A stretch of 64,000 nt of DNA. Origin: Cloeon dipterum (lineage: Eukaryota; Arthropoda; Insecta; Ephemeroptera; Baetidae). Under the pieces are notes generated by a model that searched no databases, was not told where the DNA came from, and worked only from the letters and a program-made list of their open reading frames with translations. Below are positions 26,601 through 32,834 of the stretch, piece by piece; positions within the stretch are counted from its first letter, which is position 1, and each line of letters starts with the position of its first letter. Both the position numbers and the translations under genes were made by a program. The stretch is taken from contig NC_088789.1 in the NCBI RefSeq assembly GCF_949628265.1, forward strand, positions 10,098,886-10,162,885, given 5' to 3'.

Positions 26601-28636
26601 ATTATTGTATTTTTGCAACAGTTTCCGACTGTTTATGATAAAATTCTAACATGAAAATCCTATAGTCCATCTACTTTTTATTCCAAGCTCTGCCGAATTT
26701 GGCAACTGACTTTAATGGGATCGATAAAATCTGCTGGAAAATTTCCATCGCACAACTAATTGATCACTCAACAAAGCCATCCGAGATTAAATGATCGGCT
26801 CGATTGAGTTAAGTTCTCGTGATCAAAAAGACGCGAGAAGACGACATGTCTGCAGAAATACGGTTAAATAAACAGCTTGTAACACACCGAGGAAGCTGAA
26901 CTTCATTTATTGAGATTAGATGCAAGAGTGTTAATATTTTGCTCCAAATTATTAATATCTCTCATTGAAAGCAACTGAAATGTATAATAATATTATCCAA
27001 TAAAATAATACAGACTTCATTGTATATTATATCTAGAATACATAGAAATAGAACAGTTATGTTAACTTTAGCCCCCATATATAAATATTTACTATATTTT
27101 AAATGCAATGGCAACAGTTTCTTCATTAGCTAAAGAAATAATAAAAATAAGTTAATCACAGAATTTGACAAATTTAAAGAAATCATATTGAATATGCTAA
27201 TAGTACTTGAGTGAAAAACTGAAAAAAAGCTACCATGGCCAACACAATGAACATAAAAATGACTCGTCGTGTAATATAAATTTTAATTCCTATCAACTGC
27301 TATACAATTAGGAGTAATGTTAAATTTTTTATTGCTTAATAAATAATAATGCTGTAACGAGCTATTATACAATAATTAAAAACATATAATAATGATTTTG
27401 AGTGTCATCTTGCAACATTTCATATTAGCTGCAGAGAATTCTAAACAAGCGATCGTTGAATTCCAATTTCTCAACAGCAATCGAAAAGAAGAAACGAGTT
27501 ACGATATCTTCTTGTCAACCCCGCGTTAAGTACGAGATCGTATTTTTAGTTTTTACTCTCATAACTCACTAATAGCTATCCATCAGAAGCATGTCTGCGC
27601 CGTTCGATAATTTAAATTTCAATCTCGTGATTTAATAGTTAAATGCAATTAAAAATGATTATGCTCGCAATGGAAGCGTTTAACTTCTTATTCTCTGTTT
27701 TTAATGTTTGGCTCGGCACGCCACTGCCTTGGTGCGGAGCGCGAGGCTTGCTGCAAATTCAAACAAACAGTGCCATAAAATAAAAATAAACTCGGGTGCG
27801 TGTAGCATCGCATGGGACGTACGCAACTGCTACACGTGGACGTGGGGCGCACAATTTGTGAGCTGCAGCAGAAGAAGAGCACATGTTGGCGCGGCTAAAT
27901 GGAACCGCGCTGCGCCTGCTGCTGGTCATACTCAAAATAATGCTCCCGATGTATTTATTGCGGGCACACAAACATTAGCACGCGGTTTATTTTGCTTTAA
28001 CAGACTGAAATATTGTCTGCTGACGAGCTTAGTGCTCTGCTTTGACATCTTTGCTGCACAGCCGCGCATTTGTTTTGTGCCACGAGGTGCGCGATCTGCA
28101 CAAGATCTCTCTCGGTGCCTATCGCCTGTGATTCATTGGTCAAGTTTCCTCTGGAACCTTCTTTAAATTCTGTGCATTTTACATTGTTTCTTAAACTGTA
28201 ACTGGAGCTTTTGTGGAAATAAAATACAACTTTTTGAAAGACGAATCGTGTTTATTAGAGGTAGAACGTATCCAATTTCCAAAATTTCCTGCAATCGAAA
28301 TATGCGTTAGACTTAAACAGAAGAAATAAATTAAAGAAGAGTGGGAAGGATAGGGAAGATTATTTTACACTATTTACGTTAGCCAATTATGTGATTGCTT
28401 CAATTACAATTGATTGTAAAACTCTTATGGATTGTTCATCAATGCATTGGTTATAAAGTTTTTGCACTGATCAAACAGGGTGTAGTCAGTATTACAGAGG
28501 GTGTTCGTTACTGAAAGATTATGTTTGTTATAAAATGTTTGCAATCGATCATTTAACTAAGTGTACCTCTTGACGGGCATTGATGCGTTTTTGGAAGGTC
28601 AATTAGTTTAAAATCCAAATTTTCAAATTTACATTA
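20622..28636. other. Intergenic stretch without recognisable genes
   Basis: The stretch is mostly AT-rich. The longest open frame is 166 codons at 25741-26241 (plus). It shows no domain, signal peptide or splice context that I recognise and is within what chance allows. It holds the second copy of the dispersed repeat and many A/T runs. Candidate poly(A) signals for the protease gene on the minus strand include AATAAA at 28251-28256. Confidence 0.6.
21371..21548 (+). repeat. Dispersed repeat, copy B
   Basis: This is the direct-repeat partner of 14799-14971. The two copies bracket the RYK-like first exon and its presumed promoter. Both carry two CGATA motifs, one in the TCACGATAATATTC block and one in the GTGATCGATAGGTA block. 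An open frame of 84 codons (21246-21500) runs into it but is AT-rich and unconvincing. Confidence 0.75.
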
Positions 28637-31063
28637 TTACACATCAATGATTCTGGCCAAAACACATTGCACTACAAGTGCACCGCTGGGATTGCACTTC
28701 AACTTGCCAGATGGCAAGTCTGGCAGGGGCAACTCTGAAATTTAGCTCAAATATCTGTTTCTGGCCCTGTTAAAGGTATTACCGTTGACTAGGGATGTGC
28801 AGTTACTAACTGCCGCCGTTATAATTTCATCCCAGGGACCAGAGGGGTCTTGATTTGCGATCAGCTGGGTGGTCAACGCCGAAACATCGATGACACCAGT
28901 GCTATCGACCTTAAGAAATATATATCATGGTCATGTAAGTTTATTCTGGTTGCTAGAATGGATCATCGACATACAGCTCCTGTTTGGTTGAGGAAGCATG
29001 AAATGTAGCACTGAAATATCGTTTAGGTTCAAATTTGGCAATTGTATACGAAATTCTCGTTACAGCAGCTTTGGCGAGTTGCTTTGCCATACTGGCAGAA
29101 TCGGTCAAATCAAGGCTGGTTTTTTTCTTAGCATTCTGCAGCTTGTTGAGGGCGAACAAATTGAATGCAGTGTTGTCACCACCAACCTTTTTGCAAATGG
29201 TTTCTACTGCCTTGTTAAACGTCTTGGCTAACAAATCTTTAGCAGGTGGAGAGCAGCACTTCCTTTGCAAGTTCTGTAATAATTTCAACAACAAGATCAC
29301 AAGACGCTGTTCCATTGATGGCTATAAGCCAAAAACCTTGAAATCTTTGGGTGCACATTGTGGCGGTTTTGTAGCAGTTGGTGTTGTAGGTTTTTTTGTG
29401 GTACTAGATCTGGTGCTGGCAGTGCTAGGAGCGCTGGTAACTCCGCCGTCAAGTGCTGGAATGTAATTGATCATTTTCGCCTGACTCTTTTTTGTAATAC
29501 TTTTTTTTCTGAACGTTTTACCACTCATTTTGTTAGTAATCCAACTCACGAATGACGTGACCCTTGTATACACGGAAGACGTCGTCTGGCAAGAGCTGCC
29601 TGCCCACGACACAATTCCGATCTGGACCCAAGCAGAGCCGTTGTTGTATACGAGAGCTCCGCCGCTGTCGCCCTACGTGCATTTTTTATTATTTATATTG
29701 GTGACTCAAACTCTTGGCTTAAAGTACGTTGCAGTCTGCTTGGTCTGCGGCTGGTGCTTTTGCACACATCATCACATTCGAAAAGTACCAATTCGCGCCG
29801 TACTCGGTTGTGCACGACGCGTCAGTGGTGATTGTAAGAGTTGCGTACTTCAGCGTGTTGCTCGTAATTTGATCTGTTCAATTTCAATTAATTATCCGCA
29901 GCAAAGTGCATCGTTCAACGAGCATACTGCTATCTGAAATTCTGCCAAAGCCGCTAACGTTGGCTTTCGTGCCGACCAAATCAGCGGACGCGAGTGAAGG
30001 TTGAGGCAGATTGATCCATTGAATATTGCCTGGGGCAATGAAACGCTATTGAAGGTTTTGGTGATCGACTTTTTTATAGTTACTCGTTGCAGTAACCGGG
30101 CTATCGAATGGAAGCAGGGACACATCATTTTGGGTCGTTGATGCAACGTAATTTTCGTGGCAAATAGGTTTTGCAATGGTCTTCCTGACATATCCCGCAG
30201 TGGGTGATCTAATGTTGACTATGCCGAGCACCACTTCATGCTTGAATTTGGAAATCGGCCTGCAGACATATTTCTTTTGATTCAATTTTCACCGAGTCTA
30301 AAGAAACTTACATGATGCAGTGACACGCGGACATCGCGTACTTTGGCGCGATCAGCGAAGCACCGCACAAGTATCCACCGACAGCCGATTTGCAATATGT
30401 CCAGCCAAGCGTGCCATGGGAATACTCCTGCAGCAGCCTGCGATCCCCCGATGATTTGTGCGCCAATATTATTGGTGTTCTCTAAAATATAATTAGTTTA
30501 AGTAGAAGGCTTGAATATTTTTGGTTGTCGAACTGGTGTGCACGGGTTGGACTATTTGTCCATTGTTCTTCACGAATATGCTCGGTTTGTTGTCTTTTGT
30601 CGCTGCATTTACGCTAGCAGCATTGAACAGGATCAGGATCTACAAAACGAGTTAATCCAACACTATTTAAATTTAGGATCAAGTGTATGAAAAATACTAT
30701 AAATAAATATGTAAATTATCAAAGATAAAAATTAATTGCTCTAGTAATAAAGCCCGTCAAGTAAATTTTCCGGCACTAAAATGTATTTGAGCCATATTCA
30801 GTCAAAGCAACAAATTTCTGTCCAGGGGTCGATAGATTTTGATGAAATTTTGTTTGCGTTAATTTTGCCCTAATTGTACTTCAAAACAATTGAGAAAACT
30901 CCGACTTTCCCATTTTTGCGGGTTTTGCGGGCGTTCAAATGTCAAAATCTGGGAATTTTGAGTACTTCATAACTTTGCTCAGGGTAGTCCTAGAACAAAA
31001 ATTAAAAAACCCGTAAACTCGTCTCAACAAGGCAAACAACTTTTACATTGACCTCAAAGTGGT

Positions 31064-31082
31064 AGGTCAAAGGTCAAGGTCA
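31064..31082 (+). promoter_or_regulatory. Three nuclear-receptor half-sites (left arm)
   Basis: The sequence AGGTCAAAGGTCAAGGTCA contains three AGGTCA half-sites. The first pair forms a DR1 (HNF4/USP type), and the second and third overlap as TCAAGGTCA, the extended monomer site of FTZ-F1/ERR receptors. Function is inferred from motif alone. Confidence 0.45.
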
Positions 31083-32337
31083 TACAAATTAATTTTTTGA
31101 ATTTAAACTCAAATTTGAAAATGAATATATTGAAATTTTTTGTTTTTTTCATAGCCATTTTGTAGAGCACAAAAAATGAAGCTAAAAACGTTAAAATTTG
31201 GAATGGCGTTTTGCCTCATTTTTTTAATAAAAAATGAAAACTTCGAAAACCCTTGTTTTTCGAGGTTGGTAAAAAACGATGATTGGCCAAATCTCGACTT
31301 CTAGTAATCCGAATTTGAAAAACCGCATACCGTTAGACTCCTCTCGACGTCCCTAAGTGCACTAAAGGGGTTTTAGACCCGCCAACCCCCAACCCCCTTT
31401 TAACCCCCTAAATAACGGCAAATTTAGAATTTTTCGTCCGCTTTAACACCTTAGCACGACGTTGACGAGTAATTGTCTTCTTCAAACCAATTCAGTTACT
31501 TAGTTGCGCACCCGAATCTCAGGTTGTGGTGGTCCTATTTACAAAATATTAGTTCCGTTTGACTCGTCTTTGAGTGAACTAAGTAAATGAATTGGTTTGA
31601 AGAAGACAATTACTCGTCAACGTCGTGCTAAGGTGTTAAAGCGGACGAAAAAATGCTAAATTTCCCGTTATTGAGGGGGTTAAAAGGGGGTAGGGGGTTG
31701 GTGGGTGTCATACCCCTTTAATGCACTTGGGGATGTCGAGAGGAGTCTAACGGTATGCGGTTTTTGAAATTCGGATGATTAGAAGTCGAGATTTGGTCGT
31801 TCATCCAGAATTTTATTGCATCGCGTTTAGAATAAAAATCTTTGTGCACCCGAATCTCGGATTTTAGTGGTCCTATTAACAAAAATTAAGTACCTTTTGA
31901 CTCGACTTGAAGTGAACTAAGTAACTGAATTGGTTTGAAGAAGACAATTACTCGTCAACGTCGTGCTAAGGTGTTAAAGCGGACGAAAAATTCTAAATTT
32001 GCCGTTATTTAGGGGGTTAAAAGGGGGTTGGGGGTTGGCAGGTCTAAAACCCCTTTAGTGCACTTAGGGATGTCGAGAGGAGTCTAACGGTATGCGGTTT
32101 TTCAAATTCGGATTACTAGAAGTCGAGATTTGGCCAATCATCGTTTTTTACCAACCTCGAAAAACAAGGGTTTTCGAAGTTTTCATTTTTTATTAAAAAA
32201 ATGAGGCAAAACGCCATTCCAAATTTTAACGTTTTTAGCTTCATTTTTTGTGCTCTACAAAATGGCTATGAAAAAAACAAAAAATTTCAATATATTCATT
32301 TTCAAATTTGAGTTTAAATTCAAAAAATTAATTTGTA

Positions 32338-32356
32338 TGACCTTGACCTTTGACCT
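32338..32356 (-). promoter_or_regulatory. Three nuclear-receptor half-sites (right arm mirror copy)
   Basis: This is the mirror-image copy of the motif at 31064-31082 in the opposite arm of the palindrome, reading TGACCTTGACCTTTGACCT on the plus strand. All three half-sites are intact in both arms. Confidence 0.45.
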
Positions 32357-32834
32357 ACCACTTTGAGGTCAATGTAAAAGTTGTTTGCCTTGTTGAGACG
32401 AGTTTACGGGTTTTTTAATTTTTGTTCTAGGACTACCCTGAGCAAAGTTATGAAGTACTCAAAATTCCCAGATTTTGACATTTGAACGCCCGCAAAACCC
32501 GCAAAAATGGGAAAGTCGGAGTTTTCTCAATTGTTTTGAAGTACAATTAGGGCAAAATTAACGCAAACAAAATTTCATCAAAATCTATCGACCCCTGGAC
32601 AGAAATTTGTTGCTTTGACTGAATGTGGCTCATTTATCGAAATCATCAAAAGTGTGAAGAAAAATTTCACGTTTTTTAGCTTCAATAGGGTAAATTTTCT
32701 TGACGGGTCGGATTTTAAAGAAAGTTATAAACATAATAGAGGGATTTTACTTGGAATCCCAAAAGAAAACTTCTGAATGCGCTCATCTTTGCGATGAGCT
32801 CTGTCAAAAGTGCCAGCGCACTAACTCGGCTTGG

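Follow-up and report, generated by a model that had tools for sequence, protein, structure and literature searches.

Odorant-binding proteins (OBPs) of the Plus-C class are defined by 12 cysteines and a Cys-Pro that follows C6, and the known members are single-domain secreted proteins. The OBP fold also occurs inside larger secreted proteins, as in the D7 salivary proteins and the dimer OBPs of flies, which carry repeated OBP domains and are not known to carry a protease. Here we describe a gene of the mayfly Cloeon dipterum, located in a stretch of 64,000 nucleotides (C4:10098886-10162885; hereafter the window), in which an OBP-like module of the AgamOBP47/48 type (PF22651; PDB 3PM2, 4IJ7) sits C-terminal to a Thr-rich stalk and a serine protease. 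We assign the locus, which is broken in this assembly, to a gene family of baetid mayflies whose proteins are secreted enzymes that comprise a signal peptide, a propeptide, an S1A protease, a mucin-like Thr/Pro linker and a Plus-C OBP. We put the probability of this identity and architecture at about 0.88, given the architecture itself, a conserved exon layout, intact relatives, the catalytic triad and a match to an OBP family.

The gene model runs on the minus strand from 32786 to 28425 and has 14 exons (Table 1), with exons 1 and 2 encoding the propeptide and a signal peptide recognised by eye, exons 3–7 the protease, exon 8 the linker and exons 9–14 the OBP module. A previous reading of the DNA without database searches (the sequence-only reading) had proposed a serine protease, a Thr/Pro linker and an OBP-like module in one gene, and this proposal is supported. 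The GDSGG exon, the protease C-terminus, the linker, the CC pair and the LPSGKLKCNPSGALVVQC exon were all confirmed on the minus strand. The protease had been thought to continue into the linker within one uninterrupted exon; the shared frame holds, as exon 7 joined to exon 8 continues it, but the exon is divided by a 66-nucleotide GT-AG intron (29521-29456). The length of this intron is a multiple of three and it contains no stop, and its residues are missing from the Cloeon protein P0001. In relatives, the exon 7-exon 8 junction is in phase 1 and the frame is kept. Nor does the gene end at 28637 as had been supposed, because a 16-nucleotide micro-exon and a last exon come after that position.

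To place this gene among its relatives, we drew on single-exon and protein searches of the 190-Mb genome (10 contigs) combined with modelling, which gave a lower bound of at least 18 loci. Seven of them are fused: the window copy, C4b (contig C4, 1.18 Mb), C5a, C5b, C5f and C5g (the C5 cluster, 32.76-32.79 Mb) and C1 (10.35 Mb). All but the window copy have open frames across the modelled part (C4b, C5f and C1 were modelled without exon 1), and exon phases are equal in these six models. At least 11 further loci encode a stalk and an OBP-like domain without a protease, namely C5c, C5d (frame broken), C5e, one on C3 and seven on C2. In C5c, C5e and the C3 gene, the OBP exons match those of the fused models in phase and in the micro-exon sizes of 36 and 16 nucleotides, whereas the C5d phases are displaced beyond the point where its frame breaks.

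Database proteins carry the same order of parts. P0001, an intact Cloeon protein of 524 residues from another assembly, is identical to the exon pieces of the window copy at 470 of the 502 residues compared (94%), and P0003 (NCBI: mucin-2-like isoform X1) equals the C5g model exactly. P0009 of Neocloeon triangulifer (NCBI: transmembrane protease serine 9-like) has the same order, with 46% identity over 91% of the query; Cloeon and Neocloeon both belong to the Baetidae (Ephemeroptera). The exon layout thus recurs at six other loci and the domain order in database proteins of two species, so that, judged by sequence comparison, the observation is not due to chance and the fusion of protease and OBP is real.

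The same data bear on the idea that the protease and OBP-like exons are two adjacent genes wrongly joined by annotation. Free-standing stalk-OBP genes in the same C5 cluster do indicate that the OBP half can stand alone. However, the linker exon shows no evident start codon or signal peptide, the linker exon of the protease-free C5c and C5e is spliced to a signal-peptide exon in the same phase 1, and the fused order is found at seven loci and in another genus, which makes a false join hardly credible.

In the homology search that yielded P0009, 13 other proteins covered 45-54% of the query, corresponding to the protease part. They include proteins named transmembrane protease serine 9(-like), polyserase-2 and hepsin-like (P0010-P0017, P0019, P0020), which resemble the present family in placing an S1 protease inside a longer protein; their domain listing shows no OBP family, a listing that also missed the OBP module of P0009, and two of them list PF00057 and PF01390. 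Homology searches that require shared 5-residue words found fused proteins solely in Cloeon and Neocloeon; the search that yielded P0009 applied a cut of E 1e-30 and scored the 7984 top word-sharing candidates, so that distant fusions may be missed. Among open-licence PMC papers, no title or abstract was found that describes an OBP-protease fusion, and the words protease and peptidase are absent from the main text of PMC7250882 and PMC13205551.

We next considered the assignment of the C-terminal module. The sequence-only reading had reported no OBP C-x3-C pair; the pair is present as CYISC, encoded by exon 10, and was overlooked because it lies in a 36-nucleotide micro-exon, which had been read in another frame. 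Reading exon 10 in the frame of exon 9 is ruled out by in-frame stops in the paralogues C5c, C5e and C5g. When the C-terminal half was wrongly spliced, Pfam gave no OBP match, a result caused by the splicing and not by absence of the OBP. The C2-x3-C3 motif occurs in the window copy and in all modelled C1, C4 and C5 genes and is absent from C3 and P0009. Eleven cysteines lie in the domain in 11 of 13 rows (nine in C3, eight in the broken C5d), with one more in the QC at the linker end. Micro-exon 13 supplies the Cys-Pro in most relatives; CP is found in this micro-exon in the aligned rows, with CT instead in C1.

Among 14 scanned family proteins, PF22651 (OBP47_like; cut-off 27 bits) was passed in six (C5a, C5e, the C4b module, P0001, P0003 and P0005), fell below the cut-off at 22.1-26.7 bits in five (C5b, P0002, P0004, P0009 and C1) and gave no match in three (C3, P0006 and P0008). 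PF01395 exceeded its own cut-off in three of the 14. By sequence, AgamOBP47 (3PM2) was the best PDB match of the module, and two Plus-C OBPs were matched in PDB. With Plus-C OBPs of this type the module therefore shares the C-x3-C, a further set of cysteines, a near-C-terminal Cys-Pro and a match over about 110 residues, which is firmer ground than the sequence-only reading had claimed. NCBIfam, a library that serves prokaryotes, matched none of four proteins. A six-frame genome search with PF22651 recovered no member of this family, probably owing to the shortness of the exons, and gave a single weak match at another place.

Alternatively, the module could be some other small disulfide-rich helical domain. 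Two points weigh against the OBP assignment: structural scores of the module for the six-helix OBP fold are weak, and some members lack both C2 and C5 and have no Pfam OBP match. The C-x3-C, the PF22651 and PF01395 matches and the PDB sequence matches to two Plus-C OBPs speak for an OBP, and a non-OBP domain is very unlikely. The sequence-only reading had named separate transcripts in homologues, or a fold unlike OBP, as outcomes that would tell against its proposal; neither overturned the fusion, though the fold evidence is weak. As for the missing cysteines, C2 and C5 are both lost in the Cloeon C3 gene (L013:5481-6137) and in P0009, which recalls Minus-C OBPs; paired loss fits a single disulfide, C2 and C5 being, we assume, bonded to each other in OBPs.

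The protease domain gave full-length matches to PF00089 (cut-off 20.6 bits) in P0001 (153.8 bits), P0002 (157.8), P0003 (142.6) and P0009 (161.9), as well as in the modelled genes C5a (153.5), C5b (145.7) and C1 (144.6). The catalytic triad (H102, D150 and S249 in P0001 numbering) is invariant in P0001-P0003 and P0009, and the triad motifs are the same in C5a, C5b, C5f, C4b and C1. Also invariant in P0001-P0003 and P0009 are six cysteines that presumably form the three standard S1A disulfides. In a fold search with the full-length model, the 50 matches listed were all serine proteases or their complexes, a single domain filling the list.

In these features the family agrees with S1A proteases at large; it differs from them at the specificity and activation sites. 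The S1 pocket is unusual: alignment of P0001 to plasma kallikrein placed Ala at 189, Asp at 190 and Ser at 226, with the same letters in P0002, P0003 and P0009, and trypsin-like cleavage is therefore not expected. All nine fused proteins (C5a, C5b, C5f, C5g/P0003, C4b, C1, P0001, P0002 and P0009) have Gln immediately ahead of IIGG or IVGG, so that a trypsin-like enzyme would likewise not be expected to activate them at that bond; neither Asp189 nor a basic residue before the activation site, both typical of trypsins, was found. Self-activation of the zymogen would be a guess. Two extra protease cysteines (residues 101 and 138 of P0001), one of them replacing Ala beside the catalytic His, occur together in the C4 and C5 genes and are both absent from P0009 and C1, raising the possibility of an additional disulfide. 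The C1 protease has an ordinary AAHC motif and an IVGG start.

The window copy itself carries two lesions. Its exon 3 measures 170 nucleotides, compared with 175 in C5a, C5b, C5f, C5g and C4b and 190 in C1, and the two halves of the exon open in different frames, so that the frame is lost before the catalytic His. Micro-exon 13 is preceded by AT, not AG. Other window exons are open in their own frames, and this, with the 94% identity of the compared pieces to intact P0001, would be expected if the gene were intact in nature and the frame break an assembly error. The second, independent lesion lies about 1.8 kb away, and an error could account for either lesion more readily than for the two together; we consider an assembly artifact quite unlikely. 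Comparison with relatives indicates that the window copy is probably a recent pseudogene or null allele. Since P0001 is intact and matches the window pieces, an intact allele of this locus most likely exists in C. dipterum.

Table 1. Exons of the protease-OBP gene in the window (positions of the window; nt, nucleotides).
Feature	Position	Strand	Remark
Exon 1: start codon and beginning of signal peptide (MSAFRSFLLGFQ)	32751..32786	-	same residues open P0001
Exon 2: remaining signal peptide and propeptide	30534..30639	-	
Exon 3: activation site region (AQ/IIGG) and catalytic His (ACHC)	30312..30481	-	frame broken, 170 nt
Exon 4: protease, catalytic Asp (NDV)	30084..30259	-	alignment
Exon 5: protease	29928..30029	-	
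Exon 6: protease	29728..29873	-	
Exon 7: catalytic Ser (GDSGG) and protease C-terminus	29522..29672	-	
Exon 8: Thr/Pro-rich linker and first Cys of OBP module (QCAPKDFK)	29337..29455	-	
Exon 9: N-terminal part of OBP module (KCC ... ETIC)	29064..29273	-	
Exon 10: 36-nt micro-exon, OBP C-x3-C (CYISCFLNQTGA)	28975..29010	-	36-nt exon likewise in six other fused loci, C5c-e and C3 gene
Exon 11: OBP module (VDSTGVIDV ... AVSNC)	28783..28909	-	
Exon 12: OBP module C-x9-C (KCNPSGALVVQC)	28643..28734	-	
Micro-exon 13: 16 nt, QCPSR in most relatives	28567..28582	-	acceptor AT here, AG in other modelled loci
Exon 14: OBP module C-terminus and stop codon	28425..28510	-	

Intron 1 of the window copy contains a fold-back repetitive element (30788..32632) with two 718-nucleotide arms that are 100% complementary and separated by 409 nucleotides. 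It has at least 90 genome-wide matches (40 of 519 candidates scored), many of them full length at 93-98% identity. In C5a and C5b, intron 1 is only about 0.23 kb.

Several observations concern the other loci. Seven tandem Thr-rich, OBP-like genes lie on C2 at 9.14-9.18 Mb (C2:9140001-9180000), six of them known from exon hits alone, and no protease exon was found in the 40 kb around this array at E <= 0.01. From the same array comes P0008, whose NCBI name, poly(A) polymerase-like, looks like a misannotation. C5c and C5d are divergently oriented (L010:900-5900), and by eye the sequence surrounding the first exon of each forms inverted repeats. The C5d frame break is also the point at which P0007, an NCBI protein named integumentary mucin C.1-like, stops. 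The C1 gene (L015:2649-5395) is a diverged fused gene in which exon 1 was not found.

The history of the fusion was examined on a tree of OBP modules with 16 rows, midpoint-rooted for drawing only, in which three C2 rows were pieced from exon hits and from which P0002, P0003, P0005-P0007, C5d and four C2 genes were omitted. The label "fused" needs three changes on this tree, as would result from a single gain that preceded the separation of Cloeon and Neocloeon, followed by two losses within the C5 cluster. The genes of C2 and C3 fall together on their own side of the tree (98/94). P0009 groups with the C4/C5 genes at a support of only 82/78; gene conversion may have occurred within the C5 cluster. 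As Neocloeon P0009 shares the architecture, the fusion probably predates the split of the two genera. In the ten pairs of five open fused genes, the ratio of nonsynonymous to synonymous substitution (dN/dS) was 0.11-0.47 for the protease and 0.37-0.75 for the OBP, and it was lower in the protease in nine pairs, the exception being C5a-C4b (0.40 for the protease versus 0.37 for the OBP). These values suggest that both parts are probably translated and constrained, the OBP less so.

Taken together, these features are consistent with a zymogen that would be secreted and then cleaved at the Gln-Ile bond. The Thr/Pro linker would be O-glycosylated and act as a stalk or mucus anchor, and the OBP domain would bind a hydrophobic ligand, thereby keeping the protease at the site of that ligand, on a surface or in mucus. 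This docking function is a tentative prediction that we hold at less than even odds. The duplicates, with similar proteases and varied OBPs, would fit a single catalytic activity that is directed to a different ligand or surface in each, and the protease-free stalk-OBP relatives could be non-catalytic partners in the same matrix.

The abundance of such relatives also raises the question of whether these are chiefly mucus or glue proteins, in which the Thr-rich tract does the work, capped by a cross-linked OBP fold, while the protease processes the mucus. The at least 11 protease-free relatives contain little beyond a stalk and a Cys-rich domain, the database names mucin-2-like and integumentary mucin C.1-like are attached to some members, the C3 gene weakly matches PF21827 (New_glue) below its cut-off, and the OBP pocket may be unused. 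Because the protease retains its catalytic triad and is in most comparisons under stronger constraint than the OBP, and because OBP lineages usually bind ligands, we see this role as a live possibility that is on balance unlikely. A role in chemosensation, for example the clearing of peptides or odorants around gill or antennal sensilla, would accord with the 191 OBP genes described in C. dipterum; of these, 167 have complete models, and gill expression is recorded for 82 of the 167 (PMC7250882). Most small odorants need no protease, however, and such a role appears doubtful. Beyond docking, the OBP might sense a small hydrophobic molecule and steer its own protease through the stalk, giving a ligand-gated extracellular protease whose duplicates are tuned to different ligands as the OBP changes fast while the catalytic domain stays conserved; this is an improbable, speculative extension.

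The names mucin-2-like, transmembrane protease serine 9-like and poly(A) polymerase-like mask members of this family. With such names, and with the OBP hallmark tucked into micro-exons of only 36 and 16 nucleotides, comparable genes of other insects may escape notice. The usual view of OBPs is that of carriers with a single domain, and what they do is a matter of dispute, especially where the OBP set is very large, as in C. dipterum. An OBP wired to a protease would offer a handle on non-olfactory OBP function, through both the ligand of the OBP and the substrate of the protease.
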